Virus record (IMG/VR): IMGVR_UViG_3300030430_001703
Coordinates: 1-26,040 of that record
Reading direction: 5' to 3' (one strand)
From: a virus
DNA length: 26,040 nt
Made by a program: the position numbers and the translations under genes. The notes under the pieces are model-generated. The model had not been told where the DNA came from, did not search any database, and saw nothing but the letters and a program-made list of their open reading frames with translations. Of this stretch, positions 1 to 19,821 are shown piece by piece (positions within the stretch are counted from its first letter, which is position 1; every line of letters begins with the position of its first letter).

Positions 1-3
1 ATA

Positions 4-31
4 AGTATAACGTTTATTAATCTGTATTTTC
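4..31 (-). promoter_or_regulatory. Putative phage promoter, copy A (left edge)
   Basis: On the minus strand this reads GAAAA, 13 bases, then ACGTTATACT, followed by TAT at the window edge. The same ACGTTATACT core with the same 13-base spacing to a G.AAA element occurs at 14533-14560 and 19262-19289, where it lies 3 bases from an ATG. By analogy a leftward gene should start just beyond position 1. The site overlaps the 3' end of the DnaA-like gene. The motif is seen directly; the promoter role is inferred. Confidence 0.5.
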
Positions 32-478
32 TTCACTCTCCTGTAAAAACATATCGTTTACATATTCTGATATGTATATTAAAGTTTTGTTGCTTAGGAA
101 CTCTATTTTGTATTGTATTGCTTTTATTTTAGCATCTCTATCAAATGAAGAATAGTTTTGTGTTATGTCGCTTAGGAATATGTCTAATTGTTTATTGTAC
201 TTTCTGTACATTGGAAAGTTGTTTAGAGAGTGTAATACTGTAGCGTGATGGTATGTTTTTAGTCCATTATCTTGGTGTATATCTCGTATTTTACAAAGTG
301 TGAAGTTTAAATACTTAAATAGTATCACATTAAACAACGACCTTATTTCTATGACTTGTTGTTTTCTACCCTTTGCAAAAGGATTGATATTAGTTAGTCT
401 TTGTATTGTCTTTGCGAGTTCTTGAGCTTTTTTTGTTCTCTTCTCGTTTGTATCTTGAGTGTAGTCTTTGTATTTCAT
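17..478 (-). CDS. DnaA domain IV-like DNA-binding protein
   Basis: This 153-aa protein is not recognisable as a full initiator: there is no AAA+ ATPase and no Walker motifs. Residues about 38-105 resemble DnaA domain IV, the helix-turn-helix that reads DnaA boxes. The pattern is a helix with VIEIRSLFNVILFKY, a second helix, then HHATVLHSLNNF, which matches the DnaA signature (D/H)HTTVLHA. Family knowledge: stand-alone domain IV-like proteins are known from phages and could bind origin or promoter DNA or compete with host DnaA. It is the last complete gene of the leftward early cluster, and its start region overlaps the 62-aa ORF upstream. The HTH assignment is fairly sure; the biological role is inferred. 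Confidence 0.7.
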   Translation of the reverse strand: MKYKDYTQDTNEKRTKKAQELAKTIQRLTNINPFAKGRKQQVIEIRSLFNVILFKYLNFTLCKIRDIHQDNGLKTYHHATVLHSLNNFPMYRKYNKQLDIFLSDITQNYSSFDRDAKIKAIQYKIEFLSNKTLIYISEYVNDMFLQESEENTD

Positions 479-2578: not shown

Positions 2579-2919
2579 AATAAATCTTGTATTGGTAATA
2601 AAATCCCTTTAGATGTATTGTTATCTCCACCAAGTACATCTCTTTGTGTTTTGTAATATTTTCTACAAATTTCTTTTAAATTTTTTGTTGGTATAAGATG
2701 TAAATTATCACCAAAAGCAAAACAATAATAATCACTTTCAGTTTTTGTTATACCACTATTTTTTCCCCTTGATTTATATTCTACAAATATGTTACCAGTA
2801 TCTTTAGCTTGTAAATCAAATTTGACTTCTATTTTTTTATTTGTTAAAATATCATACAATTCTTTTTCTTTTATATTTCCTATTTGTAAATCATATTTAA
2901 AATCACTATTAAATTTCAT
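2575..2919 (-). CDS. PD-(D/E)XK-like phage protein (resolvase-like)
   Basis: A 114-aa protein with the order E18/E20 (helix KEKELYDIL), D35 in VKFDLQAKDTGN, and E47-x-K49 in IFVEYKSRGKNSGI, followed by TESDYYCF. The sequence 'D...TGN.F(V/I)E....G..SG(I/L)..T.(A/S)DY' is a recurrent phage signature of a PD-(D/E)XK-type protein, probably a Holliday-junction or branched-DNA nuclease. Length fits a minimal single-domain enzyme. The gene is ATGA-coupled to the sigma-factor gene upstream and to the tiny membrane peptide downstream. It is the third nuclease-like gene in this early block. The fold assignment is good; whether it cuts junctions in vivo is inferred. Confidence 0.65.
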   Translation of the reverse strand: MKFNSDFKYDLQIGNIKEKELYDILTNKKIEVKFDLQAKDTGNIFVEYKSRGKNSGITKTESDYYCFAFGDNLHLIPTKNLKEICRKYYKTQRDVLGGDNNTSKGILLPIQDLL

Positions 2920-3413
2920 AGTTTACTTTTTATTTTTTGTTTTACTTTCTGGTAAGTATTGTATAAACTTCTATACTCTATTGTTGTTTCTCTTGACAAA
3001 GCAGAAATGTTACCTTCATCTTGTATAAGTTCAAATACTTTTTTATCATACCAATGCATCTCGTTTAGTGCTTTGGTTACTTTGTTGTATGCTTCTTCAA
3101 ACATATTTTCTTCTTCAAGCTCTACTTTATTTTTTGTGTCTATGATGTGTTTGATGTATTCATCTTTAACATCTATTACTTGCATTCTTTTTTCTTTTCT
3201 ACACAAATCAATAAACATACATCTTAAAGTTTTGTATATGTAGAAGTCATTTATATCTCCTTTATAAGTTATATCTATACCATTGTCAATCATTATAAGT
3301 AATTTAAGATACATAGATTGTACCAAATCTTCTGCTGTATCTGGGTTACATTTCCAACTTAAACAATAGGAAATCCATTTATTATGTTTGCTTACAAGTA
3401 TATCTTTTATCAT
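2916..3413 (-). CDS. Phage sigma-70-like RNA polymerase sigma factor
   Basis: A 165-aa protein with the two-domain layout of group 4 (ECF-like) sigma factors. The N-terminal part carries the region 2 signature NPDTAEDLVQSMYLKLL (about residues 23-39), followed by an aromatic and basic stretch ending in LCRKEKRM that would contact the -10 element. The C-terminal part (about 115-165) has a helix-turn-helix compatible with region 4: LIQDEGNISALSRETTIEY then SLYNTYQKVKQKIK. It would bind host core RNA polymerase and redirect it to phage promoters. It lies in the early operon between the ATPase and nuclease genes, ATGA-coupled to both. The repeated promoter-like motif at 4-31, 14533-14560, 17505-17533 and 19262-19289 is a plausible target, which is inference. 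Confidence 0.75.
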   Translation of the reverse strand: MIKDILVSKHNKWISYCLSWKCNPDTAEDLVQSMYLKLLIMIDNGIDITYKGDINDFYIYKTLRCMFIDLCRKEKRMQVIDVKDEYIKHIIDTKNKVELEEENMFEEAYNKVTKALNEMHWYDKKVFELIQDEGNISALSRETTIEYRSLYNTYQKVKQKIKSKL

Positions 3414-4315
3414 AATATCTTGCCTTGTGTTCTTCTTGGTATAGGGTTTACACCTTCTATTTCAAAACCAGTATTGTTTTTTAAGCTCTTCATTAGTACA
3501 GGCATATCTATAGGTGTACATTTACCACCTGTGTCTATGTTCTTACATTTAAGTATTGCTATCCTTGAGTACATCCAATCTGTAGGAGAATAAATGTATC
3601 TGTGTATTCGTATCATATTATCACACCTATTGTTAAACATAGAACCATATTCAATAGAAGCTGCACTTGGTGGTGTTGGTTGGTTTTCAAAGTCGTGTCC
3701 TTTAGGGTGTACTTTTCTTGATGCTTCTGTAGCAGCGTGTGTACAAATGTAAGTTGAAACATTGTTTTGCTTACAGAACAATCTAACTTCAGACAGAGCT
3801 TCATAAGTATACTCATAAGAGTTTGTACCTTTAAGTTTGTCTTTATCTTTAGCAAGTGAGTTCCAAGGGTCTATAACAAATGCTTGGTAGTCCCACGCTT
3901 TTTTTAATTGGTTTGCTAAGTCTAATATTTGAGTATAGCTATATAATCTTGTAGTGTCTATGAATTTAAAATGGGAATCTATCCATCTTATTCTTTCTTT
4001 ATATATAGCTTCTGGTATTTTGTTGAATACTTCGTTTTCTAAGTATTCTAATATCTTCCTGTAGATAGTATAGGTTTCGTTTTCGCTTGAGTACACAAGC
4101 CATCTAATGTTATGCTTCAAAGAATAAAGTGTCATTAGATACAATAATACAGATGTTTTACCCACATTAGAATGTCCTACTACAACATTCATAGCACCAT
4201 ACTTAAAACGTAGGTATTCATCTAAACGAGAGATACCGAGCTTTAAACCAGTCTTTAGTTTTCCTGCTCGGTAGTCATCAAGTTTTTTAATCTCATTGTC
4301 AAGATTGATAAACAT
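3410..4315 (-). CDS. DnaB-like replicative helicase / RecA-fold ATPase
   Basis: A 301-aa RecA-fold ATPase of the DnaB/RepA type. Walker A is GHSNVGKTS (G47-S55), Walker B is FVIDPWNSL with D149, and YICTHAA with H193 occupies the sensor position (motif H3) of DnaB helicases. It is much shorter than bacterial DnaB (about 450-500 aa) because the N-terminal primase-binding domain is missing; only the motor domain is present. Such short helicases occur in phage genomes beside SSB-like genes, as here: the DUF3127-type protein starts the overlap TAATG at 4315. It would form a ring and unwind the phage replication fork, or act as a helicase in recombination. No loader or primase was recognised in the window. 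Confidence 0.8.
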   Translation of the reverse strand: MFINLDNEIKKLDDYRAGKLKTGLKLGISRLDEYLRFKYGAMNVVVGHSNVGKTSVLLYLMTLYSLKHNIRWLVYSSENETYTIYRKILEYLENEVFNKIPEAIYKERIRWIDSHFKFIDTTRLYSYTQILDLANQLKKAWDYQAFVIDPWNSLAKDKDKLKGTNSYEYTYEALSEVRLFCKQNNVSTYICTHAATEASRKVHPKGHDFENQPTPPSAASIEYGSMFNNRCDNMIRIHRYIYSPTDWMYSRIAILKCKNIDTGGKCTPIDMPVLMKSLKNNTGFEIEGVNPIPRRTQGKIL

Positions 4316-9171: not shown

Positions 9172-10428
9172 TTATGTTGTCAAAGTTGTTAATTCTGCAT
9201 CTGTTAATATTGTGTCAAAATACATAAGCTGTTTACACTTACCAAAAAAATCATCACCACCATCACCCCTATCAAAGTTTATCCTGTCCAAACCTGCAAG
9301 TGCATTTGTATGAGAAGTATTAGTAGCTCTCTCACTACCATTTACCCAAAGTGCATAGTCGCTTGATTTATATTTTATTGCAATCTTGTTAAAATTTGTG
9401 ATTGTAGCACCATCAAATTGTAAAGTAAATTGTGAAGCACCACCATCTATAAATTGCATAGCAATTCTATTTGAACTATTTAGATAACTTAAAAGTATTC
9501 TATCTGTAGAACCATTAGAAACAGATATATCTCTAAGTGAAGAATCATTAGCAAGTGCTGCTATCTCTGCAAATAACACACCTTCTGAAGTATTTATAAT
9601 AGTAGAATTACCTGCACTATTACAAGTATCTACAGTTCTTGTTGTTGCACTACTACTTGTTGGAATATAAGATGTAGCAACACTTGATTGCTCTATTTGG
9701 GCTCCCCAAATCAATATACCAGAACTACCATCACCTTGTGATGATGCATTTCTTGCTGAATCGGAAGCATCTATAATGCCTACACTAAAATAACCTGATG
9801 TACCTGATGGTGTAGCTGTAGCTGATATTCTATACCAACCATTACCATAATTTTGTACATCTGTTGTGTGCCCTGATTCTGCTGTTACAACACCATTTTC
9901 TAAATTTATATTGCTGTGAGTGTTTCCAAAATCACTTCCTAAAATAATCTGTATAAAATTCTTTTGTAGTTTTTTTGCAAATATAGAAAATGTAAAAGGG
10001 TTTGTAGATACAGTTTCAATTTTAAATAGAGTATGTGCAGAATTATTAGAATCAGTAAAAAATTTATTAGCAGTAAAAGAACCTAAAGGTGAAGTATCTA
10101 CATTAGGTGTATTGTTTGAATTAAATTTTGTAAAATAATTATCAAAGTTTTCAGAGTGAGTAACTAAATTTTGTTTACTAGGTTCTAACAACAAATGTGG
10201 GTTTTGTGGGTTGTTTGGACTATAATCTAATCTTGGTTGATTAGATGATGCTATTTCTATAAGTCCATCTTTATTTACTCTTGTGCCATTTGTAGTACCT
10301 GAATAATTAAAATCACCATCACTATTACTAGGTATAACAGAATACAAATTATCTGTAGAACTACTGGAATTGAAACCAGAAGGTATCATTACAAGTTTTG
10401 CTTTCTTATGTATTTCTGCTAATGACAT
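9172..10428 (-). CDS. Tail/host-recognition fibre protein with lectin-like domains (paralogue 1)
   Basis: A 418-aa protein built of a segment with GTRVNKDGLIEIASS...LLLEPSKQNLVTHSENF, a carbohydrate-binding-like beta domain (about 95-255), and a C-terminal LamG/concanavalin-like domain ending in NFDRGDGGDDFFGK and ILTDAELTTLTT. The motif 'TRVN..GLIE....PR.D(Y/F).........LLLEPS..NL...SE.F' is a signature of phage fibre/structural proteins. It is a paralogue of the next gene (TAATG-coupled at 10428). It probably forms part of the receptor-binding tail fibre or head fibre. It lacks the ~50-aa N-terminal extension of its neighbour. Confidence 0.75.
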   Translation of the reverse strand: MSLAEIHKKAKLVMIPSGFNSSSSTDNLYSVIPSNSDGDFNYSGTTNGTRVNKDGLIEIASSNQPRLDYSPNNPQNPHLLLEPSKQNLVTHSENFDNYFTKFNSNNTPNVDTSPLGSFTANKFFTDSNNSAHTLFKIETVSTNPFTFSIFAKKLQKNFIQIILGSDFGNTHSNINLENGVVTAESGHTTDVQNYGNGWYRISATATPSGTSGYFSVGIIDASDSARNASSQGDGSSGILIWGAQIEQSSVATSYIPTSSSATTRTVDTCNSAGNSTIINTSEGVLFAEIAALANDSSLRDISVSNGSTDRILLSYLNSSNRIAMQFIDGGASQFTLQFDGATITNFNKIAIKYKSSDYALWVNGSERATNTSHTNALAGLDRINFDRGDGGDDFFGKCKQLMYFDTILTDAELTTLTT

Positions 10429-11804
10429 TAACTTGTTAATTGTGTTAGTTCTGCATCTGTAAGTGCTTCTTTAAATACTGCAATACATTTGACCTTACCA
10501 ATATAGTCTTGACCACCATCTCCTCTGTCAAAATTTAAAGTATTCAATCCAGTAGGCATAGTAGCACTTGTGTCAGTCCCAACTTTTGCTCCGTTAACAA
10601 ATAAAGCAAAATCATCAGTTTTATATTTTATAGCAATTTTAAAAAAATTAGTAACAGCAGGAGAAATAGTTGTTGTTAAATTTACTGTGGTTGTACCACC
10701 ACTCTTTATTAAAACTTGTATTTGATTGTTTGTACCCCTAAATGAAAAAGTAACTGAATTGCTTGAAGCACCTGATGATATAGAAAACTTTTTATTACTT
10801 CCAACAGCTTCTGCTAAAGAAGCAATTTCTGCATATAGCACACCTTCACTATCATTAAATAAATCAGAATTACCACTACTATTTGCTCTTTCTGCAATTC
10901 TCGTTGCTGTAGAACCAGTTGTAGCTATGTAAGATGTACTAAACGCTTGTTCTTCTATCATAGCTCCCCATAAAAAAATACCTGAACTACCATCTCCAGC
11001 AAAACTATATGTATCATCATTACCTAGTCCTATAACAACTCTATCTGCTGTACTTGCAGCTGCTGTAAAAGAACATCTAAACCATCCATTTGAAAATTCA
11101 ACCATTGAAGAACTTGCAATAGTACCTGTTTCAGTTTTTACACCTGTATCTAAATTAAAGGATACAATGTTACCTGTTACTGAAGTTTTTCCTATTGCAG
11201 CTCTAATACAATTATATTCTCCTTTCTTTGCAAAAAATGATAAAGAGTAAGTATTGCTATCTGTTAAAGTAACAACCTTGTCTATTCTATGAGTATTGTT
11301 GTCAGTTGTTGGAACTATTTTATATACATTAGCACTACCTGATGGAGAGCTAATTGAGCTTAAAGCATCTGTAGTTCTTATATTTACCCATTGACTAAAA
11401 TCTTCACTATAGTCAAATAAATTTGTACTACTAGGTTCAAGCAATAAGTGTCCACTTGTGTTGTTAGTAAAATCTATTCTTGGTGTGTCGTTACCTTGTG
11501 ATGCTTCTATAAGTCCTGCTTCATTCACTCTTGTAGCAGTTGATTCTCTATGAAAATCAAAATCACCATTAGCATCTACAGGTATTGCACTACCTATCTT
11601 ATCTTGTGAGTAACCTGTAGCTGTAAATACAATACTTGCTTTGTTAGGAATATTTGCTAATATTTTATCTGTAGCATCTGAGTTCTCATAATATGTAGAA
11701 CGATTGTACAACTTATTGGTTGCACTAGAATCAAAGTACATATCACCAAAACCTTCTGGTTTACTTTCTCCCCAATTGCTTCTGTGATAAATTTCGTTTG
11801 CCAT
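10428..11804 (-). CDS. Tail/host-recognition fibre protein with lectin-like domains (paralogue 2)
   Basis: A 458-aa protein. An N-terminal segment (residues 1-50) with EIYHRSNWGES and DMYFDSSATNKLYN is absent from the neighbour, and may anchor it to the virion. Then come RESTATRVNEAGLIEA and LLLEPSSTNLFDYSEDF, a beta-rich carbohydrate-binding-like domain, and a C-terminal LamG-like domain with LNFDRGDGGQDYIGK and ALTDAELTQLTS. These blocks match paralogue 1 in order and phrase, so the two arose by tandem duplication. The likely role is receptor binding. A 48-base gap separates it from the connector gene; I see no terminator in it. Confidence 0.75.
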   Translation of the reverse strand: MANEIYHRSNWGESKPEGFGDMYFDSSATNKLYNRSTYYENSDATDKILANIPNKASIVFTATGYSQDKIGSAIPVDANGDFDFHRESTATRVNEAGLIEASQGNDTPRIDFTNNTSGHLLLEPSSTNLFDYSEDFSQWVNIRTTDALSSISSPSGSANVYKIVPTTDNNTHRIDKVVTLTDSNTYSLSFFAKKGEYNCIRAAIGKTSVTGNIVSFNLDTGVKTETGTIASSSMVEFSNGWFRCSFTAAASTADRVVIGLGNDDTYSFAGDGSSGIFLWGAMIEEQAFSTSYIATTGSTATRIAERANSSGNSDLFNDSEGVLYAEIASLAEAVGSNKKFSISSGASSNSVTFSFRGTNNQIQVLIKSGGTTTVNLTTTISPAVTNFFKIAIKYKTDDFALFVNGAKVGTDTSATMPTGLNTLNFDRGDGGQDYIGKVKCIAVFKEALTDAELTQLTS

Positions 11805-11852: not shown

Positions 11853-12353
11853 TTAAAGTACCCATCCGTTAAATAAGCTGTCCTTTTGAGGACTAATATC
11901 TTCGTTTACATTTGTATTATATTCTGGAAATGAAGATTGATTAAATGTTATGTAATCTATCATTCTAGTTGTATAATACTCTGCTAAATTTCTTTCTTTG
12001 TTTACTAAAAAATCTATTTCATCTTTAGTAGGTGTTTCTCCATTTTCGCTTGTATGCTTAAATAGTCCACCATTTTTAAGTTGGTAAGCAGCATAAGGTA
12101 AATACTCCACAAGTGCAAAATGTATAAGCATAGGTGCTATATAAGTATTTACAAGTGTTTGATATGCACCAGACAATCCACTTCCTAATATATCAGATTG
12201 TAGTTTGTCGTATAGTTTACTACCTATATAGTTACGAATGTGTATCTCTTGTGATATCTTCACAAATTGTATAAGCTTGTTTGTATCACAATTTCCATCT
12301 ATGATACTGTTTTTTACAAGGTCTGTTCTATTTATAAATAATGCTGTTGCCAT
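11853..12353 (-). CDS. Putative head-tail connector/adaptor protein
   Basis: A 166-aa, mainly helical protein: FINRTDLVKNSIIDGNCDTNKLIQFVK (residues 6-32), then QEIHIRNYIGSKLYDKLQSDI, YQTLVNTYIAPMLIHFALVEYLPYAAY, and a C-terminal helix with ERNLAEYYTTRMIDYI. The pattern 'L...T.(I/L)..GN.D..K....I...Q...I...LG..LY..L' is a conserved phage family in Bacteroidetes phages and is reminiscent of helical head-completion/adaptor proteins. It sits directly downstream of the portal (TAATG overlap), which is the usual place for a connector that lies beneath the portal ring. Confidence in the family is good; the adaptor role is inferred from fold and place. Confidence 0.6.
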   Translation of the reverse strand: MATALFINRTDLVKNSIIDGNCDTNKLIQFVKISQEIHIRNYIGSKLYDKLQSDILGSGLSGAYQTLVNTYIAPMLIHFALVEYLPYAAYQLKNGGLFKHTSENGETPTKDEIDFLVNKERNLAEYYTTRMIDYITFNQSSFPEYNTNVNEDISPQKDSLFNGWVL

Positions 12354-14158
12354 TAGTTCTTAAATCCCATTTTATTCCAATACGCTGCTGTATAACCTTT
12401 TCTCACCATATCCTTTGGTGCTACAGGTACTTTCTGTGCATTAGGTTTTGTTTTGAATCCCCTACTTCTAGCTTCTGTAGTAGATATGACTTCTCCTAAA
12501 CTCTTATTACCTTCTCTTCTTGCATATATTCTTCTAAACCATTTGTGATGACATCTTGCACCACCTTTATATAACCATACAGAATATTTATCAGAACCAC
12601 CTTTACCAAAACCTGCATTGACTACTTTATCTTCCATAGCCATTATATCTTCTTTACGATATACTTTTTTTGCAGAAATCATTTTTTTACAAAACTCTCT
12701 TGAATTGGATTGTGTTTTTTTAGGTTCATACATATATCTTGTTAAAAAGATAATATCTTCTTGTCCTTCTTGTTTGCTTTTACCATCTTGCTCACTTTCT
12801 CTATAAGGTTTTGCACTACCTGTGTTTGCAAGTTCTACTTTGTTAAGCTCACTTATTTTTGTGTCTAGCTCATCTTCTAAATCATAATCTACTTCTCTCT
12901 CATCTATAAGTTCAAAGTCTTTTAGAAGTTCTTCTTCATCTTGTCCTAAATCTATAAGTGCATCTGCTACTTCTGTGTCTATGAATTTATCTATATCACT
13001 AGATAAATCAACACAACATTCTTGACTTAATTTTACACCAGTTTCTTCTTCTCTTGTTTCTTCGTCAATTATAGCGTTGTCTTGGAAATCTAAAGGTTGT
13101 AGTGTCTTAAAATATAAATTTAGAGCAATGTCATTGTATGCAAGTATTTTATCAAATGATTCTATTAGTAGATTCTGAAAAGGTCTAATAACTATATTCA
13201 TCATTAGCTTGGTAGCAGTTTCTAATTCATCTGCATTATTACCCAAACCAGTATTGTCTTTTATACCAAGTAGCATAGGACTTACAACTCTATGTGCAAC
13301 CATAATCTTCCTTGAACTCTCATCACTTAAGAATTGATATTGGTTGTGTGCATCACTTAGTTGTACAGGGTCTATTGTAGCTGCTGTTTCTGGACTATCA
13401 TTAAATGCAAGTATAAACTTACCTGCATTACTACTACCACTAAACTTATCGTATATTCTTCTTTCTATTCTTTCCCTTTCTTCTGCTGAAGGTGTGCCAG
13501 AATTAAAATTAATAAGCATAGAAGGACTTAAACCTGATTGTATATTGTTTATATGAAAATTACTTATTTCTTCTTCTAAGTCAGCGTATTGAAGCCCACC
13601 TTGATAATCTGGAGTAGAATAGTACTTGTATCCTGCACGATATGGTTTTACATATAGTATTTCTATAGATTCTTTAGAAAAGCCGAATGCAGAAATTCTT
13701 TTAAGCTCTGAGCTGTGTTTGTACTTACTCCAATCTGCAAAGTAATAATATGCTTCTATTTCACCTTTATCATTACATTTCTCTGCTGCTAATGTTTCTA
13801 CAGGCAAGTGTTCCACTCTTGCAATCTTACTTCTGTTTTGATTGTATATAACTTGCATAGAGCATTGTCCAAATAGTTTTAAGTCTGTACATAACTTTCT
13901 TACACAATCTTTGTGTAAAAGTGTAATAGCTTGTGCATATGCTTCTGGTTTTCTATTGCTATCTGTAGCATCTAAACCTTTGCCAAATATCATATCTGAT
14001 ATACCATTTATAATAGCGTTGTTGGTAGGACTACCATTGTATCTATCAATAAGGTATTGGAAGTAAGAATTTTTATCTCCGTATGTTACAAAGTCCTTAT
14101 TCTTCTTTTCTTCTATTTCTGGACTTACATAGTTAGATAAATTTATAGCGTGTATCAT
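12353..14158 (-). CDS. Portal protein with C-terminal extra domain
   Basis: A 601-aa portal. The first ~400 residues show portal features: YFQYLIDRYNGSPTNNAIING near the N-terminus, DLKLFGQCSMQVIYN, HLPVETLAAEKCND, and KIMVAHRVVSPMLLGIKDNTGLGNNADELE before a long helix (NIVIRPFQNLLIESFDKIL). It forms the dodecameric ring through which DNA enters and leaves the head. After residue ~460 comes an extra domain with NSREFCKKMISAKKVYRKED, YSVWLYKGGARCHHKWFRR and a basic tail; C, H, H residues could hold a metal. It is downstream of the capsid gene rather than upstream. The upstream gene overlaps by ATGA. Confidence 0.85.
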   Translation of the reverse strand: MIHAINLSNYVSPEIEEKKNKDFVTYGDKNSYFQYLIDRYNGSPTNNAIINGISDMIFGKGLDATDSNRKPEAYAQAITLLHKDCVRKLCTDLKLFGQCSMQVIYNQNRSKIARVEHLPVETLAAEKCNDKGEIEAYYYFADWSKYKHSSELKRISAFGFSKESIEILYVKPYRAGYKYYSTPDYQGGLQYADLEEEISNFHINNIQSGLSPSMLINFNSGTPSAEERERIERRIYDKFSGSSNAGKFILAFNDSPETAATIDPVQLSDAHNQYQFLSDESSRKIMVAHRVVSPMLLGIKDNTGLGNNADELETATKLMMNIVIRPFQNLLIESFDKILAYNDIALNLYFKTLQPLDFQDNAIIDEETREEETGVKLSQECCVDLSSDIDKFIDTEVADALIDLGQDEEELLKDFELIDEREVDYDLEDELDTKISELNKVELANTGSAKPYRESEQDGKSKQEGQEDIIFLTRYMYEPKKTQSNSREFCKKMISAKKVYRKEDIMAMEDKVVNAGFGKGGSDKYSVWLYKGGARCHHKWFRRIYARREGNKSLGEVISTTEARSRGFKTKPNAQKVPVAPKDMVRKGYTAAYWNKMGFKN

Positions 14159-14529
14159 AATACTATGTAATCGTTATCAAATGTGTTGTTTGTTGTGTAC
14201 TCATTGTTATTTACGTTATATACACTTTGTTGTGTAGATTGAGCTGTACAAAATAATTTATCTCTATAGGCAAGTGTGTTGTCTGTTTTTTTTACTTCAA
14301 GTGTATAAAAGTGTCCTTCTCTAAAAGGTGCATTACTTGAACCAAAAGTTACAGATGCTGTTAGAAGATTCTCATTTGTATCAACAGATGTAGAAACAGA
14401 GTTTGTAGTTTCTGATTTATTGGTTTGTTCATCTGTTATACTATAGTTTAGATTTATCGTGGTTGTAGGATAATCTATTCTTGGAATGAACTTTAATGTT
14501 TGTGTTTGATTTACATTAATAATCTTCAT
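14155..14529 (-). CDS. Small structural protein downstream of promoter B
   Basis: A 124-aa beta-rich protein from the ATG at 14529; eight more upstream codons are open but lie inside the promoter-like motif. Sequence features are TQTLKFIPRIDYPTTTINLNYSI, FREGHFYTLEVKKTDN, and a low-complexity Asn/Thr tail. I associate 'QTLKFIPR' with small proteins next to portals in Bacteroidetes phages, function unknown. It is the first gene after a terminator/promoter cassette and is ATGA-coupled to the portal, so portal, connector and fibres would be read from this promoter. Confidence 0.65.
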   Translation of the reverse strand: MKIINVNQTQTLKFIPRIDYPTTTINLNYSITDEQTNKSETTNSVSTSVDTNENLLTASVTFGSSNAPFREGHFYTLEVKKTDNTLAYRDKLFCTAQSTQQSVYNVNNNEYTTNNTFDNDYIVL

Positions 14530-14532
14530 ATA

Positions 14533-14560
14533 AGTATAACGTAAAAAAAACAAAATTTAC
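14533..14560 (-). promoter_or_regulatory. Putative phage promoter, copy B (portal/fibre operon)
   Basis: Minus strand: GTAAA, 13 bases, ACGTTATACT, TAT, then ATG at 14529. The spacing between GTAAA and TATACT is 17 bases. The region after the motif (ATGAAGATTAT) is also shared with copy C. It follows a terminator directly (14563-14589). The motif being so close to the ATG suggests a leaderless or near-leaderless transcript. Confidence 0.6.
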
Positions 14561-14562
14561 TA

Positions 14563-14589
14563 TAAAAAAAAACCACCTTGATAGGTGGT
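14563..14589 (-). terminator. Rho-independent terminator (leftward)
   Basis: On the minus strand: ACCACCT, loop ATCA, AGGTGGT, then nine Ts. The stem and loop are the same as in 19290-19316. It lies between the 75-codon ORF upstream and promoter B, so it ends any read-through transcript before the portal operon. Confidence 0.85.
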
Positions 14590-14612
14590 CTTTGATTTAA
14601 ATTTTATTGATT

Positions 14613-14840
14613 TTAAAAATTATCAATTGCATAGTCACCACATTCTCTCAAAGTTTTTGTTTTGTAGTCAAAACCATCTTCTTTCATTTTCTTAAGGACT
14701 ATGTTTGGGTCAATGCACATATCTATACATAGACTCACAATATTGTGAAAGTGCATTACAGCTTCATATTGAGCTTTTCTTTGTCTTTGCTCTTCAGCAA
14801 ATTTAGCTTGATATTCTGCAACTATTTTATTAGATTCAAT
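14613..14840 (-). CDS. Small ORF without an ATG near its start, between two terminators
   Basis: A 75-codon frame from ATT at 14840 or a 47-codon one from ATG at 14756. The encoded sequence looks like real protein: a charged helix (AEYQAKFAEEQRQRKAQYEA) followed by HNIVSLCIDMCIDPNIVL and KEDGFDYKTKTLRECGDYA. Non-canonical ATT is rare as a start; the shorter ATG version is safer but loses the coiled-coil part. The whole unit is between terminators at 14851-14880 and 14563-14589, so it would depend on read-through or its own internal promoter. No family is recognised. Confidence 0.4.
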   Translation of the reverse strand: MESNKIVAEYQAKFAEEQRQRKAQYEAVMHFHNIVSLCIDMCIDPNIVLKKMKEDGFDYKTKTLRECGDYAIDNF

Positions 14841-14850
14841 GGTTTTTTGT

Positions 14851-14880
14851 AAAAAAAAGAAGGGGCAAAAATACCCCTTC
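14851..14880 (-). terminator. Rho-independent terminator after the tail-tube-like gene
   Basis: On the minus strand GAAGGGG, an 8-base loop, CCCCTTC and then eight Ts: a perfect 7-bp stem, GC-rich against an AT-rich background. It lies about 60 bases after the stop of the 179-aa gene and would end the head transcript. Confidence 0.85.
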
Positions 14881-14937
14881 CAAATTTAAAACTAACCTAT
14901 GAAAAAATTCATACACTACAAATGTACAAATATTTTA

Positions 14938-15477
14938 TTAAGCAGGACTAATAGGTGTCGCTGAAGCTATATCTGGTATAGTACAGAAGAATGGTGGAAA
15001 TACTTCACTAGCTGTTACTGTCAAAGTAAATCCTTGTAAATCTCCTGCTGCACTACCTGTAACGATAGTACCACCAGTTACTTCACCACCATTATCTCTA
15101 CCTACCAACATTCTCTTAGTAGTGCCTGCACCATCTGGGTACATTTCTACTACATAATGCGCTCTACCCCTTGAGAGAAGTTTTATCTCTTCTTGTGTAG
15201 CTGCATCTAAGATTTGGAATGTAAGATTTAAAGTAGTTTCATAGAACGTAGTACCATTCTCTCTTGAAGAATTGATAACTGTTTCCATAGATGAGTTACC
15301 ACCTTTTAGTTCAAATTTAAAAAACTCTGCAGAGTTATCAGTAGGTAAAGTAATTGTACCATTAGTATCTCCAAGAGCTGATATAACTGCACTATAATCT
15401 AAAATGTAAACATTCTTTATTCCTGCATACGCTGGTTTACATCCAAGATTTCTTCCTTTTGTTATTGCACAACTCAT
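14938..15477 (-). CDS. Putative major tail (tail tube) protein
   Basis: A 179-aa protein: KPAYAGIKNVYILDYSAV at the N-terminus, FFKFELKGGNSSMETV, NSSRENGTTFYETTLNLTFQILD, a long loop, then MLVGRDNGGEVTGGTIVTG and GDLQGFTLTVTASE. The plan 'GIK.VY(I/L)......ss.ENGT..(Y/F).qtL.i.l.......GG...TGG...TG.a.gD..G(Y/F)TLt' resembles phage proteins usually annotated as major tail subunits. They are small beta proteins that polymerise around the tape measure. Own terminator downstream, and another terminator between this gene and the capsid gene. An alternative is a minor head-tail protein. Confidence 0.6.
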   Translation of the reverse strand: MSCAITKGRNLGCKPAYAGIKNVYILDYSAVISALGDTNGTITLPTDNSAEFFKFELKGGNSSMETVINSSRENGTTFYETTLNLTFQILDAATQEEIKLLSRGRAHYVVEMYPDGAGTTKRMLVGRDNGGEVTGGTIVTGSAAGDLQGFTLTVTASEVFPPFFCTIPDIASATPISPA

Positions 15478-15486
15478 ATTTTTAAA

Positions 15487-15527
15487 ATAAAAAAGGGTGA
15501 GTAGGCACTCGGCTTACCCACCCCTTT
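15487..15527 (-). terminator. Rho-independent terminator after the capsid gene
   Basis: On the minus strand GGGTGGGTA, an 11-base loop, TACTCACCC, then TTTTTTATTTT; one G:T wobble in a 9-bp stem, which can be lengthened by AAAG pairing with the T-run. It is about 20 bases after the MCP stop and would cap the MCP transcript while some read-through feeds the tail-tube-like gene. Confidence 0.8.
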
Positions 15528-15545
15528 GGTTAATAATTAAGTTTA

Positions 15546-16508
15546 TTATGTAGTCGCTGTAAAGTGCTTAGCATCAGCAGAGATACCAACTTGTGTACCT
15601 GCTGTGAATCTAGCAATTACTCTTACATTTTGACTTCCATCTAAGTCTGCCATATCTAATAACTTAACTTCGTTGTGGTCTGATAACAAACCAGTACCAA
15701 AGAATAAGTTAGAATTTTGTGCAACGATTGCTCTGTTGCTTGACATACCTGGACATCTCTGAACTTTTAGTCCTTCAAAAGTCAAGTTTCTTTGGAAGTT
15801 AAACCAAAGTGAACCTTGACCATCAATACCATCAGTTGTCGCTGGAGATACTCCACTTGATATAGCAGAAGAGAAACCACCCAATGCTCTAACATATGAT
15901 TGATATACATTGTTAGGTATGTAAATAGTTACATCATCTTTGCCATATACAGCAGAAGGAATGTTATCTACTACTTTGCCTAAGAAAGTAACTACGTTGC
16001 TAGAAGAGATAGTTGAGCTACCTACACCAGATAGTGCAGAAGAGCTTAGTCTTTGCTCAAAACCTTCAAACAAGTTGTTTCCTGAAGCAGCAGAATCATC
16101 ACCACTCCAAATGTTATTCTCTACAGTTTCTGCAATCTTACCTGCAACATAACCTAAAATATAATCAGCTAGGTTGTCTGGTAGTTTGTCATAAGCAGAG
16201 TATCCCATTTGGATAGCTTCCCAATCTGAACGGAAATCAGCTTTACATAGTTGTAAGTTGACTTGTAACTCTTTTGGTTCTAAGATTGATTCTCCTAGAG
16301 TAAGAGTTGAAGTAGGGTCAAAATCACAAGTAGCATCTTTGACTACATCATCGGTGCTAAGTGTTTTTAATACTTCTTTAAATTTAACATTAGGTTTGAT
16401 TGTAATCGCACCATCATTTAGTGTTTTACCTGAAGTAAGTGCAGCAGAAATATATTGCCCTGCAAATTCACCAGAGTAAGTTGTTGTTATTGAAGTTGTT
16501 GTACTCAT
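15546..16508 (-). CDS. Major capsid protein, HK97-like
   Basis: A 320-aa protein with features of Bacteroidetes-phage HK97-fold capsid proteins: an N-terminal segment with TYSGEFAGQYISAAL, LCKADFRSDWEAIQMGYSAYDKLP, a long spine-like helix (LADYILGYVAGKIAETVENNIWSGD, residues about 112-137), VTIYIPNNVYQSYVRALGG, LTFEGLKVQRCPGM, NLFFGTGLLSDHNEVKLLDM and a beta strand ending in FTAGTQVGIS. It forms the icosahedral shell. Upstream are the decoration-like, scaffold-like and protease genes in the usual order; downstream a terminator. Expression would come mainly from promoter C or D. Confidence 0.85.
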   Translation of the reverse strand: MSTTTSITTTYSGEFAGQYISAALTSGKTLNDGAITIKPNVKFKEVLKTLSTDDVVKDATCDFDPTSTLTLGESILEPKELQVNLQLCKADFRSDWEAIQMGYSAYDKLPDNLADYILGYVAGKIAETVENNIWSGDDSAASGNNLFEGFEQRLSSSALSGVGSSTISSSNVVTFLGKVVDNIPSAVYGKDDVTIYIPNNVYQSYVRALGGFSSAISSGVSPATTDGIDGQGSLWFNFQRNLTFEGLKVQRCPGMSSNRAIVAQNSNLFFGTGLLSDHNEVKLLDMADLDGSQNVRVIARFTAGTQVGISADAKHFTATT

Positions 16509-16527
16509 TTCTTTATTTTATTATTTA

Positions 16528-16944
16528 TTATATTTCTCCTACAGTTATTGAAGAACTAGCGTTTCCGTTTCCAAACAAGAAATAGTTTGTACCATCACTT
16601 GAAATTTCTACGAAATCACCGATGCTTTCTGCACCATCTTCAAATGTTACTTTGTCAACAGCATCTGCTTCTACAATCGCACCATTTACAATTACACCAC
16701 CATTAAGAACATCTCTATTGTCTGATGGAGTTTGTACTACTGTGTCTGTTGAAAAAGCTGCTGATACTACAAATTTGAATTTCAATCCTGCTGAAACTGC
16801 AGGAAGTGTAACTGTGTACCCTGTACCAGATATTAAAAATGTTTTACCACTATCAGCACCTGTTAAAGTTACATCTGCTGTAAGTGTTTCGTATTCGTCT
16901 AAGATACGAATTACATCGTTAGAAAATGTTGTTGTTGTTGCCAT
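16528..16944 (-). CDS. Putative head decoration/head fibre protein
   Basis: A 138-aa beta-rich protein that begins MATTTTFSNDVIRILDEYETLTADVTLTG (described as residues 1-29) and contains DSGKTFLISG, VTLPAVSAGLKFKFVVSAAF, VNGAIV and SIGDFVEISSDGTNYFLFGNG. The pattern 'LT..D.GKT..l.......v.LP....G..f.fvv' occurs in phage decoration and fibre-type proteins. It sits between the scaffold-like and capsid genes, the usual place for a decoration protein. Its start overlaps the scaffold stop by TAATG. The C-terminus is rich in Ser and Gly, suited to the capsid surface. Confidence 0.65.
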   Translation of the reverse strand: MATTTTFSNDVIRILDEYETLTADVTLTGADSGKTFLISGTGYTVTLPAVSAGLKFKFVVSAAFSTDTVVQTPSDNRDVLNGGVIVNGAIVEADAVDKVTFEDGAESIGDFVEISSDGTNYFLFGNGNASSSITVGEI

Positions 16945-17501
16945 TATTTATTAAATAGTTTATTGAACACAATGTCTTGTGTAGTTAATGTTTTATTTTG
17001 AGAAAGAAGATTAATTTTCTTTTTAGAAACTTCTTCAGGATTATGTGCTATTGGTTCTACAGCAGCAGATAATTCTTCTTTTACTTCTTCAGACATTTTC
17101 TCTTCTTTTTTGTGCTCCATCAATTTCTTGATGTGTTCCTTTAGCTCTACAGCTAAATTGTCCATTTCTTTCTTGAGTTCATCTTTTGTAACGTACTCAA
17201 GTTTTTCCTTTTTTTCTTCTTCGTGTTCAGCAGCTTGTACTGCTTCTACTTCTTCTTGTTCTTTTACCATAATTTCATCAATTATTCCTTCTTCTATTAC
17301 TGTTAAAGTTTTACCATCTTCCATTAAATACTCTCCTACAGGTAGTGCTACTCTCTCATCTTCTGTTTTTATAAACACTTCGTTACCTTTCTCAAAAGAC
17401 TCTGCTTCTAAGATTGTTCCGTTCTCTAATTTAAGTTCTGCTAGTTTCACTTCTTCACCTAAAAGATATTTAATTTTAGATAACATTTGACTTGCTTTCA
17501 T
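16944..17501 (-). CDS. Putative scaffolding protein
   Basis: A 185-aa protein in two parts. Residues 20-75 form a beta-rich segment, LELKLENGTILEAESFEKGN-like with TEDERVALPVGEYLMEDGKTL and VIEEGIIDEI. Residues 75-150 are a highly charged coiled coil (many Glu/Lys, for example EHIKKLMEHKKEEKM). The C-terminal region is basic (KKKINLLSQNK). Charged coiled-coil proteins just upstream of the capsid gene and downstream of the protease are typical internal scaffolds. The motif 'NGT.LEAE.FE.G..V.I...DE.VALP.GEY.LEDG..L.V.EEG.I.EI' also occurs as a family in Bacteroidetes phages. Promoter-like copy D lies directly upstream. Confidence 0.7.
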   Translation of the reverse strand: MKASQMLSKIKYLLGEEVKLAELKLENGTILEAESFEKGNEVFIKTEDERVALPVGEYLMEDGKTLTVIEEGIIDEIMVKEQEEVEAVQAAEHEEEKKEKLEYVTKDELKKEMDNLAVELKEHIKKLMEHKKEEKMSEEVKEELSAAVEPIAHNPEEVSKKKINLLSQNKTLTTQDIVFNKLFNK

Positions 17502-17504
17502 ATA

Positions 17505-17533
17505 ACTATAACTTACTTATTAATTTATTTTAC
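17505..17533 (-). promoter_or_regulatory. Putative phage promoter, copy D (scaffold/capsid)
   Basis: Minus strand: GTAAA, 14 bases, AAGTTATAGT, TAT, then ATG at 17501. Relative to copies B and C it has two differences in the ACGTTATACT block and one extra spacer base. It would add transcripts for scaffold, decoration and capsid, the most demanded products, beyond those from copy C. Confidence 0.45.
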
Positions 17534-17540
17534 ATTTTCA

Positions 17541-17690
17541 TCAGGAAGTTTTTGTAATACTTCCTATTCCTTGTGCCCACAAACTACCATCACAACACTT
17601 TATGCTATAGGTATGTTTGTCTTTGCATAAGCATCCCCTACGACTTCCCTTAGGGCTAGACCTACTTGGTGTTTTGTATCTATGTTTCAT
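17541..17690 (-). CDS. Small Cys-rich structural-module protein (RGCLC/CCDG)
   Basis: A 49-aa ORF: MKHRYKTPSRSSPKGSRRGC then LCKDKHTYSIKCCDGSLWAQ then GIGSITKTS. The layout 'RGCLC.....Y...CCDGSL.AQGIG' is one I recall as a conserved tiny protein in Bacteroidetes phage head modules. Four cysteines (C20, C22, C32, C33) could bind zinc. Its ATG overlaps the protease stop as ATGA, so it is translationally coupled; it fills the protease-scaffold gap. Function unknown. Confidence 0.75.
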   Translation of the reverse strand: MKHRYKTPSRSSPKGSRRGCLCKDKHTYSIKCCDGSLWAQGIGSITKTS

Positions 17691-19258
17691 TTGTCGCTTT
17701 TTGGATGTCCTTTAGGTAATAAGTCATTATCACCTGTATATTTTTTGTTTTGTGGTCTGCCGTTCTTTACTAAATATAAATATGCATTTACTCTTGCAAA
17801 TGCCCATTGACTTGGACTACTAACTCTTGGAGAGTGTGATACATTGAATGCACCAAGTCCCCTTTGAAATACAGCTTTTAATGTGCCTACGTTTACACCA
17901 TATCCTAACTTGTCTTTATATCTTTCGTTAAAATCATCAGATTTCTTTTTTAAGGTAGCTTCATCTTGTTTTGATACTTTAGCACCTCTTGACGTGGAAG
18001 CATCTCCCTTAGCTGTTCCTTTACCCTTTGGAGATGGGTTAGGTGTTCTTGATTTAGGTGCTTTGGGAGATTTCTTAATTCCACCCCTTTCTCCTACTTC
18101 TGCCATTTTAACACATTTACCATTTTTCTTTTTATAACCTTTTGGACATTTATGGTAGGATAAATCTTTACTATGGAACTCACAAGGCATATACCAAGTT
18201 TGTCCTTCAAATTCGTGTTCGTGAAAACCTTCACAACCTAAATCTTTTGCAATCTTTAGTGCCATTTCTTTAGTAGAGTATGCTAGTCTATCCATAATAA
18301 TAGCATAATCTTCATTGACTTTTACATCTGCAAGTTCTAATTGTCCAAGTTCTTTTAGCTTTGCTTCTGCATATCTTTTACCTGCTTTACCACCCCAAAG
18401 TAAATAAGATATTGTACCACACGCTTCTGTGTCGCTTTCATCATAGTACTCTTCAGCTCTTGACAAAAAAGAATACATACGTTTGATTGTGTTTTCACTT
18501 ATTGGTTTTCCTTGTGCAAGTTGTTGTGCTCGTATCTTACCTACTTCTGTAGCACATTTGTTGTTTACTTTTTTATTTAAGTCTATACCTTTTTGTGCAT
18601 TGTTCTTTACTGCATCAGGATAATCACTATAGCTTTCAAGCTCTATGACTTTACCATCTTTGGTTCTACCATCTTGTCTTACAATTCTTCTAATCATAGA
18701 TAGTAGTTCTTCTGCTTCTTCTTCTTCAAAGTCGTTTAGAGATTCTTGTGGTCTTTCCATCTTATCTACAAAGTAACCTTCTATACTAAAACCTTTTACT
18801 TTGCCTGTCTTTACATAATCATCCCAAACTTCTTTGTTGTTTACTTTAACTACTCCCATCCAAGTACCTACAGGTACATCAAGATTGTATTTACGAGATT
18901 TATCATTTAACTCATCTTCTACAATCCAACTCTCAACTAAAGAAAGTCCTTGTAGTTTGTGATGGTGTTCAAGTGTGCTGTTGTTTTGATTACCACTTAT
19001 AAGATACATTTCAGATGCTTTTCTTACTGTTTCTTTTGAGAAGTATATGTAGTATTCTTCTTCACCCCTTTTTCTGTATATTGGTTTGTTTGGTACAAGC
19101 AAAGCACCTATAAGTATTTGTTTATCTACTTGTGCAAGTTGTATTTCTTCTGACTTAAGTGCTACAAAATCTTCTTCTATTGCAGGATTCTCTACAATTG
19201 ATATAGCTTCTATTCCTGATATTTCATTATCATCAAGTACAAGTTCTATAATCTTCAT
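17687..19258 (-). CDS. Prohead protease (XkdF-type) with extra domains
   Basis: A 523-aa multidomain protein. Residues 1-155 are an XkdF-like serine protease (Peptidase S78-related): GALLVPNKPIYR, STLEHHHKLQGLSLVESWIVED with candidate catalytic H98, VPVGTWMGVVKVN, and VKGFSIEGYF with S148. Residues about 205-306 form a second domain: YPDAVKNNAQKGI, CATEVGKIRAQQLAQGKPIS, RMYSFLSRAEEYY, CGTISYLLWGGKAG. After a cysteine-bearing basic linker (CPKGYKKKNGKCVK), residues about 390-523 form a third domain with GAFNVSHSPRVSSPSQWAFARVNAYLYLV and KYTGDNDLLPKG. A plain protease would be about 200 aa. The protease would cleave scaffold and capsid proteins. It is the first gene after promoter C. Confidence 0.8.
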   Translation of the reverse strand: MKIIELVLDDNEISGIEAISIVENPAIEEDFVALKSEEIQLAQVDKQILIGALLVPNKPIYRKRGEEEYYIYFSKETVRKASEMYLISGNQNNSTLEHHHKLQGLSLVESWIVEDELNDKSRKYNLDVPVGTWMGVVKVNNKEVWDDYVKTGKVKGFSIEGYFVDKMERPQESLNDFEEEEAEELLSMIRRIVRQDGRTKDGKVIELESYSDYPDAVKNNAQKGIDLNKKVNNKCATEVGKIRAQQLAQGKPISENTIKRMYSFLSRAEEYYDESDTEACGTISYLLWGGKAGKRYAEAKLKELGQLELADVKVNEDYAIIMDRLAYSTKEMALKIAKDLGCEGFHEHEFEGQTWYMPCEFHSKDLSYHKCPKGYKKKNGKCVKMAEVGERGGIKKSPKAPKSRTPNPSPKGKGTAKGDASTSRGAKVSKQDEATLKKKSDDFNERYKDKLGYGVNVGTLKAVFQRGLGAFNVSHSPRVSSPSQWAFARVNAYLYLVKNGRPQNKKYTGDNDLLPKGHPKSDK

Positions 19259-19261
19259 AAT

Positions 19262-19289
19262 AGTATAACGTATTTGTAAAAGTTTTTAC
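19262..19289 (-). promoter_or_regulatory. Putative phage promoter, copy C (head operon)
   Basis: Minus strand: GTAAA, 13 bases, ACGTTATACT, ATT, then ATG at 19258. It follows a terminator directly, just like copy B. The ten-base core is identical to copies A and B. Confidence 0.6.
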
Positions 19290-19292
19290 AAA
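19273..19292. repeat. Perfect 9-bp inverted repeat within promoter C
   Basis: TTTGTAAAA-GT-TTTTACAAA. It contains the upstream GTAAA element of promoter C on the minus strand, so it could be an operator for this copy; copies A, B and D do not have it. It could also extend the terminator hairpin region by chance because the sequence is mainly A/T. Confidence 0.4.
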
Positions 19293-19316
19293 AAAAAACC
19301 ACCTTGATAGGTGGTT
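19290..19316 (-). terminator. Rho-independent terminator after the 98-aa gene
   Basis: On the minus strand AACCACCT, loop ATCA, AGGTGGTT, then T-run. Same stem as 14563-14589 and 5331-5350. It separates the 98-aa gene from the head operon. Confidence 0.85.
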
Positions 19317-19344
19317 CTTATTGTAAGTATGACTATATTTATTT

Positions 19345-19641
19345 TTAGTAGTCGTCTGATAGTCTTTCTCCAAAACCATCGTATTCCTCTGTCGCATACC
19401 TTGACTTCTTGAATTTGTAGCGATTAGACCAGTAACATTCGTCACACCAATAACCTGTGCTGATGCCATACCAATCGTGTCTTTCGTGTCCTTCTCTATC
19501 ACAACATCTGCAAGATACTACTTGAATGATTGAATGAGTCGCAAACGAGAACTCAAAATCCACGCAATCTACTGCGTCTTCTCGTGTGTAGAACTCTTCT
19601 TCTACCTTGTTAGTCTTGTCGTTAATAACTTGATATTTCAT
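19345..19641 (-). CDS. Conserved marine-phage Cys-rich protein (GERLSDDY end)
   Basis: A 98-aa protein: MKYQVINDKTNKVEEEFYTREDAVDCVDF, then SCRCCDREGHERHDWYGISTGYWCDECYWSN, then RYKFKKSRYATEEYDGFGERLSDDY (regions near residues 1-29, 43-73 and 74-98). The Cys/His pattern C-x-C-C...H...C-x2-C suggests a zinc knuckle. I recall the end '(G/S)YWCDE.Y......YRK.RY...E.DGYGERL..DY' as a frequent small protein of unknown function in marine phages of several host groups. It is isolated between two terminators with its own upstream 180-base region holding the 13-mer shared with the early operator, so it probably has its own promoter and regulation. Confidence 0.75.
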   Translation of the reverse strand: MKYQVINDKTNKVEEEFYTREDAVDCVDFEFSFATHSIIQVVSCRCCDREGHERHDWYGISTGYWCDECYWSNRYKFKKSRYATEEYDGFGERLSDDY

Positions 19642-19684
19642 AAGATTAATTTTAAATTTAGACCAAGATAAATGAAATATTTGA

Positions 19685-19697
19685 TATACACAAATGT
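19685..19697. promoter_or_regulatory. Partial second copy of the 5189-5206 palindrome
   Basis: TATACACAAATGT here matches 13 bases of the minus strand of the palindrome at 5189-5206. It is 44-56 bases upstream of the ATG of the 98-aa gene, similar to the 57-74 bases from the palindrome to the early operon's first ATG. The right half (TTAATA instead of GTATA) is degenerate. The rest of the 19642-19821 gap is AT-rich and holds no gene that I can support. Confidence 0.4.
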
Positions 19698-19764
19698 TAA
19701 TAATTCTACGAAGGTAATTTTATTCTAATAGCACTTCTCTTAATTTTAATATATACATACTCTA

Positions 19765-19792
19765 GAAAACAGAAAGTCGCTTAAACGCTTTC
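19765..19792 (-). terminator. Likely terminator after the tape measure gene
   Basis: On the minus strand GAAAGCG, TTTAAG, CG, a bulged A, CTTTC, then TGTTTTCT: a 7-bp stem with one bulge and a broken T-rich tail. It is about 30 bases after the tape measure stop. It is weaker than the other terminators. Confidence 0.5.
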
Positions 19793-19821
19793 TAAATGCC
19801 TTTAAAATTGATTTTGTATTT

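Follow-up and report, generated by a model that had tools for sequence, protein, structure and literature searches.

A putative late-promoter element in marine flavobacterial phages whose bases vary in step with an ECF-like sigma factor of the phage

The stretch of DNA analysed here, referred to as the window, is the entire 26,040-base IMG/VR record IMGVR_UViG_3300030430_001703, a linear phage fragment with the main set of genes on the - strand (Table 1). Its portal protein is 38.5% identical to the portal of Nonlabens phage P12024S. The names scaffold and small terminase were given by place, and phrog_24921 is matched by the protease as well as by the scaffold-like gene. The sigma gene follows the DnaB-like helicase gene in a gene cluster running to the putative promoter at the left edge. 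Elsewhere in the window the genes at 9172-10428 and 10428-11804 are adjoining diverged copies of each other (40% identical), each matching the lectin-like Laminin_G_3 in its C-terminal part.

Table 1. Positions of the genes, hairpins and putative late promoters discussed in the text
Feature	Position	Strand	Remarks
Putative late promoter, gene beyond left edge	1..33	-	CGTTAT at 7-12
ECF-like sigma factor, 165 aa	2916..3413	-	Region 2.4 residues C65, D69, R72
DnaB-like helicase gene	3410..4315	-	Overlaps sigma gene start
Portal protein	12353..14158	-	Family match
Small gene preceding portal	14155..14529	-	Without family match
Putative late promoter, pre-portal/portal operon	14530..14562	-	AAA 14556-14558 (-29..-27), CGTTAT 14536-14541 (-12..-7), predicted +1 = ATG 14529
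Intrinsic-terminator-like hairpin	14568..14593	-	7 bases ahead of GTAAA, 14529 site
Scaffold-like gene	16944..17501	-	Weak phrog_24921 match (unknown function); 'scaffold' from place only
Putative late promoter, scaffold-like/capsid operon	17502..17534	-	AGTTAT 17508-17513 (A for C at -12)
Head maturation protease	17687..19258	-	Peptidase_S78_2 match
Putative late promoter, protease gene	19259..19291	-	AAA 19285-19287, CGTTAT 19265-19270, ATG 19258
Intrinsic-terminator-like hairpin	19294..19319	-	4 bases ahead of GTAAA, 19258 site

A sequence-only reading of the window had described GTAAA-N13-ACGTTATACT directly before the ATG codons at 14529 and 19258 and a close variant, GTAAA-N14-AAGTTATAGT, before the one at 17501, and these were found on the - strand at 14533-14560, 19262-19289 and 17505-17533, each ending 3 bases ahead of its ATG and with a T at -3. 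The terminator-like hairpins 7 and 4 bases ahead of two of these sites, which are identical in stem and loop, make those sites likely operon boundaries. The GAAAA-N13-ACGTTATACT described for the left edge is likewise present on the - strand (4-31), but the next gene expected there is absent from the window because the record stops at base 1. In the near-identical phage L083 the gene beyond this edge is a 120-aa gene directly preceding the large terminase gene, and in L129, likewise near-identical, an inserted ORF is followed by a gene of the 120-aa type preceding the large terminase; the 120-aa gene ahead of the large terminase (Terminase_3) is without any family match. The inserted ORF (L129 13057-13547) lies between the promoter and the pre-terminase gene and matches a methylase faintly (Eco57I, E 0.0095), and the window record ends exactly where this insertion sits, possibly an assembly break at a point of variation. 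The sites had been said to precede the protease, scaffold and post-capsid operons; the one before 19258 is that of the protease gene, the one before 17501 that of an operon whose first gene is scaffold-like by place, and the one before 14529 that of a pre-portal/portal operon.

When the window was searched with the 10-mer core alone, allowing up to two mismatches, 37 matches were found against a shuffle mean of 36.5, so that the core by itself proves nothing since shuffles hold as many. The full motif was observed twice and in none of 200 dinucleotide shuffles, and a relaxed form of it four times against a shuffle mean of 0.045 and a maximum of 1, confirming that the four sites are real and, as full motifs, above chance. 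A generic sigma-70 promoter scan of positions 13500-20500 was uninformative (21 found, 27.4 expected). The host primary-sigma element TAnnTTTG was absent from just upstream of the start at all four sites, which bears out the remark that the motif does not look like the host -33 TTTG / -7 TAnnTTTG type, and no late-type site was seen directly ahead of the sigma gene of the window. Two other intergenic stretches, TACATTTG and TATCTTGG, at 14926 and upstream of 19641, are close to the host TAnnTTTG element and are possible candidates for early promoters.

Loci of relatives were collected by a portal search (best 80), a sigma search (49), a search with a sigma alignment (best 80; L133-L195 new), a second portal search (best 80) and several searches with further sigmas (best 80 in one of them); as four scans gave the best 80 each, the loci are a sample of the relatives. 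In the first set of loci GTTATA was located at -11 from the ATG of 50 out of 551 distinct intergenic starts and at most three times at any other offset, and the comparison with operon-internal starts gave 57 of 567 intergenic (gap 35 or more) against 0 of 400 operon-internal (gap under 15; Fisher p 2.6e-14). Among the sigma-selected loci L133-L195 an unbiased fixed-offset k-mer scan ranked TACGT at -14 and CGTTAT at -12 highest, CGTT at -12 being present at 14/563 intergenic and 1/470 operon-internal starts (p 0.0026). Over 360 loci, the two-block motif in its four variants stood at -12 of 166 out of 2032 intergenic starts, compared with 2 out of 1512 operon-internal starts and with 2/2032 intergenic starts at a control offset ten bases upstream. 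The enrichment at gene starts of relatives that had been proposed as a check on the motif was thereby found.

Alignment of five orthologous gene classes on their ATG, without gaps, gave a clearer anatomy of the element. The classes are the protease, the scaffold-like gene, the small pre-portal gene, the gene directly preceding the large terminase and a gene of ~215 residues upstream of the tail genes, with a telling family match in the protease only. Near-constant in all five are AAA at -29..-27, T-9 A-8 T-7 A-6 and T-1, and the spacers are variable. The element as read from the window had therefore to be redrawn in both halves: its upstream block is not GTAAA, of which only the AAA is nearly constant across relatives, and its downstream block is not TATACT after a 17-base gap but CGTTATA or a variant of it at -12..-6, with 14 bases between the AAA and CGTTATA blocks and with the between-lineage variation carried by the first three bases of CGTTATA. 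TATACT was also considered as a -10 hexamer and rejected, as it would place the start within the start codon; its TATA is kept and the three preceding bases carry the type.

The distance from the element to the start codon is fixed in most cases. Among 103 intergenic sites of CG type, with contexts less than 90% identical to each other, the first ATG begins exactly 12 bases past the C in 63 and at any other single distance in no more than five. A TA-like box ~12 bp upstream of the start codon is taken in the cited sections of PMC3160421 to mean a leaderless mRNA, and the -10 box described here holds this distance; the leaderless genes treated in those sections have a primary-sigma-like TANNNT box, whereas the present box is of the alternative-sigma CGT type and the model host of the group has mostly leadered messages. 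Where an ATG is missing at the predicted start (37 sites), a T/purine pair is retained at -1/+1 in 25 (expected 19%; p 1.4e-10), and this initiator, kept where the start codon is not, separates the start of transcription from a translation signal. Together with the fixed ATG distance it suggests leaderless late messages, and most late mRNAs probably start at, or within 1-2 bases of, the A of the ATG. Leaders are predicted at some sites (1 base in L083, 14 in L150, 28 in L136, 32 in L087 and 36 in L173) and at five sites, that of L129 among them, the first ATG comes two bases early relative to the predicted +1 (offset 10). According to the cited part of PMC6847099, 87% of the Flavobacterium johnsoniae transcripts with a probable promoter have leaders of more than 10 bases, so that late messages lacking a leader would be out of the ordinary in such hosts and the phage would have to depend on leaderless translation in cells with mostly leadered messages.

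The two-domain sigma factor proposed for 2916-3413 was borne out by the Pfam matches of its relatives and by its structure model, which is closest to ECF sigmas. The window protein itself matches Sigma70_r2 at E 0.003, under the curated cut-off; in 25 of 53 family members the match has E <= 0.01 (best 1.3e-5) and gp33 of P12024S scores above the cut-off, region 2 thus being detectable by sequence from family members and gp33. A PDB profile search gave SigR region 2 (E 0.0089) as well as a weak match to SigE (E 0.29). The AlphaFold model has a mean pLDDT of 85.7 and a pTM of 0.47, with low confidence in the linker. ECF sigmas lead its PDB matches, the best Foldseek E of 4e-4 being the sole one under 0.001 and Z reaching 10.2, a range (under ~13) in which, as the structure tool warns, a helical protein may match through common arrangement alone. 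The rmsd of the whole chain is high and single domains fit at 2-3 A: residues 1-78 superpose on ECF region 2 (2.3 A over 74 residues of Bartonella RpoE, 5uxx) and residues 101-165 on region 4 of E. coli sigmaE (2.7 A over 65 residues), so that the model shows a protein of only regions 2 and 4 with a linker of fewer than 50 residues, as in ECF sigmas. Sigma-28, sigma-32 and sigma-70 also match, with lower Z, as expected within one superfamily, and in a comparison with viral structure models the matches ranked third and fourth carry the name Sigma70-ECF and the phage GAP52 ECF sigma was found at E 0.0096. The DxxR of region 2.4 (D69-L-C-R72) occurs together with CGT sites in the window, as expected of an ECF sigma, and some relatives have other residues at the DxxR positions and other -10 boxes; the AAC -35 box of the group is replaced by AAA. 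Judged from its modelled fold, the product is an ECF-like sigma factor, and binding to core polymerase is predicted.

Five genes downstream of the sigma gene toward the left edge were compared with Pfam and gave no anti-sigma match. A tblastn search of 50,697 phage records (E 0.01) gave no relatives of the window sigma, from which gp33 is too diverged to be detected in this way, and a search for prophage relatives with the sigma alignment against 84,980 species, each represented by a single genome, gave 118 pattern matches, none of them confirmed. Some relatives have two sigma-like genes in direct succession, the second being diverged: L026 (at 18807-19382; L117 is this contig again), L255 from the record of L201, L087 and L111.

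When the bases at -12..-10 were compared they differed between contigs, and sites within one contig mostly agreed. With the type left unrestricted, 51 of the 76 contigs with two or more sites were of a single type (2000 shuffles: mean 14.1, maximum 25); a narrower pattern without A or G at -12, by which 43 of 43 contigs were of one type, is superseded by this count. In 23 of the 25 mixed contigs the difference is due to an AGT site only and all 23 AGT sites lie at the scaffold-like gene, whose promoter in the window clade has A for C at -12; there they perhaps set a lower promoter strength.

To relate these bases to the sigma factor, residues were numbered as in the window protein and a rule was drawn from a discovery set of 127 contigs with a sigma, 61 of them with sites. 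At -12, R at residue 72 goes with C and K with T; at -11, D at residue 69 goes with G and N or Q with T; at -10, S, T or C at residue 65 goes with T and G with A. The rule fits 102 of 112 sites of the discovery set, the same data from which it was drawn, and the ten departures are seven AGT, one TTA, one CTT and one ATT. Loci fetched later by sigma sequence, which are relatives of the discovery clades, added 42 sites on 31 contigs, and of the 33 sites fully predicted 30 were right and three depart, a count made without the CGTT preselection used earlier on six P12024S-like contigs; shuffles for the 33 sites gave a mean of 8.4 and a maximum of 19, and once similar contexts were removed 15 of 18 predictions were right. 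The residues A and S, new at position 69, were paired with CTA in 9/9 later sites.

In a table of 85 distinct sigmas the rule holds without exception, a score cleaner than the raw counts because off-type sites are left out: each contig was given its majority type, the labels were CGT, CGA, CTA and TTA only, and AGT, ATT, CTT, TTT, AGA and the like were dropped. For -10, residue 65 is there the only one of 173 columns that makes no error; seven columns achieve this for -12, residue 72 being the simplest, and three for -11, residue 69 among them. Labels were assigned by hand to L132 and to the L159 and L173 sites, and L180, a candidate for the TTA type, was set aside by judgement as a mis-registered CGTT site. 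The three residues are spaced i, i+4 and i+7 in helix 56-76 of the model. On the tree the base changes number at least 1, 2 and 3, and support is 0.34 at the node that unites the non-CGT types; with so few evolutionary events relatedness inflates the match between residues and bases. Mutation of Tt-RpoE1 showed that the Asp of its DxxR reads the G of CGTC, according to the text cited from PMC3397946, and D69 with G at -11 may by analogy correspond to this; a general residue-base code for ECF sigmas is ascribed to Todor et al. 2020 in the cited portion of a review (PMC8103513). On balance we think it likelier than the contrary that the sigma and nearly its whole regulon changed their code stepwise together, through CGT, CGA, CTA and TTA and through residues 65, 69 and 72 on successive helix turns, with most of the mRNAs leaderless.

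The complete genome of P12024S holds a sigma homologue, gp33, annotated with sigma-70 region 2 and situated shortly before the large terminase gene, and CGTT at -12 was found at six of its 49 predicted starts. None was found in three flavobacterial phages without a sigma hit in the bases examined, namely 11b (0/56 starts), phi10:1 (0/52, in 30,000 of 53,664 bases examined) and phi38:1 (0/69, in 50,000 of 72,534 bases examined); in phi38:1 a looser check picked up two operon-internal starts with CTATA or TTATA at -12.

Four other explanations of the element were considered. The first, that a host sigma, primary or ECF, reads these promoters and the phage sigma is unrelated to them, could draw on the CGT -10 box being a hallmark of bacterial ECF promoters in the cited part of PMC8103513; it is nevertheless unlikely, as the primary consensus TTTG / TAnnTTTG (given in the section used of PMC6847099) was not seen at the window sites, the motif type agrees with the phage sigma on the same contig and CGTT at -12 is missing in the examined sequence of the three flavophages without a sigma hit. 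The second takes the element for a translation-initiation signal in the mRNA, Kozak-like, instead of a promoter, in keeping with the fixed ATG distance at 63/103 sites and with the use of nucleotides upstream of the start by flavobacteria, which lack Shine-Dalgarno signals (PMC6847099, in the excerpt used). This we regard as very improbable: operon-internal starts would need the same signal and only 2/1512 have it, the element is kept at leadered, non-ATG sites (L087, L136, L150, L159, L173) and has a further block at -29, the A at -3 that acts as a positive determinant is not conserved, with T in its place at the three window sites that have an ATG, and the bases track the sigma factor (102/112 and 30/33). 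Just as improbable is a third, in which a phage RNA polymerase uses the sites as promoters or some other activator of the phage binds them; the window and contigs are fragments that could miss such a gene, but the complete P12024S genome, with six sites in the same register and gp33, has no RNA polymerase annotation, and the two blocks have a sigma-like spacing. The last, a merely copied intergenic module of terminator plus flank, agrees with the identical hairpin ahead of both exact sites; the spacers, however, differ between those two sites, and the explanation is refuted by the element being kept before different genes of diverged phages when the flanks are not.

The sites are thus, with high confidence, promoters of a late regulon read by the ECF-like sigma of the phage, with a predicted start at or near the A of the ATG. 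A middle or late regulon read by the phage sigma had already been suggested from the window, and the suggestion gained support from the enrichment at starts, the content of the operons, the control phages without sigma hit or CGTT and the tracking of residues by bases, being refined to a -10 element CGTT(ATA) and to messages that are probably leaderless. That the motif letters vary in step with the phage sigma suggests that this sigma switches on the late genes; we infer the late timing from the kind of genes in the operons. The sigma would be expressed from the cluster of replication genes that extends to the terminase promoter and would join the host core RNA polymerase, its region 4 reading the AAA block near -29 and the helix of region 2.4 reading CGT at -12..-10 through residues 72, 69 and 65. 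Transcription would then begin at, or 1-2 bases from, the A of the ATG and leave most mRNAs without a leader, and the terminator hairpins upstream of two sites would keep the operons apart.

A phage ECF sigma with promoters of its own is of a known kind. For gp36 of phiEco32 and its counterpart in SU10, which like the present sigma read phage-specific promoters ahead of late genes, the motif tAATGTATAtA lies 6-8 bases before the start (PMC4281155, cited portion); the present motif is AAA-N14-CGTTATA, with transcription probably starting at the start codon, and the host phylum differs. The hallmarks of ECF promoters are given in the part cited from PMC8103513 as CGT at -10 and AAC at -35, the AAC coming from the first small set studied. 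The present element shares the CGT box with the bacterial promoters of Tt-RpoE1, EcfG and SigW in the sources as cited, and the DxxR Asp reading G with Tt-RpoE1, and differs from them in having AAA for AAC and a 14-base gap between its blocks, in being phage-borne and in serving virion genes instead of a stress regulon. Another close counterpart is gp33 of Nonlabens (Persicivirga) phages P12024S/L, likewise a gene with sigma-70 region 2 shortly before the large terminase; the six sites of P12024S are CGTTA at -12, most of them with CGTTAATATA as compared with CGTTATA here, and its record names no promoters. A survey of marine viral genomes grouped many uncultured genomes with the Persicivirga phages (PMC5332604, cited section), and we infer that the present phages belong to this group. 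The stepwise co-evolution and the leaderless layout look new, as neither turned up in the literature searches, and among the entries listed there, which leave out subscription journals and preprints, no title or opening of an abstract dealt with late promoters of flavobacterial phages. For these mostly uncultured marine phages the element offers a testable switch for late genes, recognisable from sequence, its natural intermediates bear on how a sigma and several promoters can shift specificity without breaking the regulon, and leaderless late transcripts are predicted in hosts without Shine-Dalgarno signals.

The motif precedes few operons, whose genes include those for terminase, protease, portal and other virion proteins along with some target genes of no known function. 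Some relatives have a sixth class, a ParB_N-like gene with a late-type site at its start (L179 6889-8145; L286 15972-16559), fused in L179 to a DNA methylase domain, and this ParB/methylase gene would in such phages be a further target of the regulon. In the distant relatives L148, L157, L160, L162, L165 and L182 the messages of the terminase region seem to open with a short palindrome followed by T (for example GATTAATCAA...TTTTT), a possible 5' hairpin or operator.
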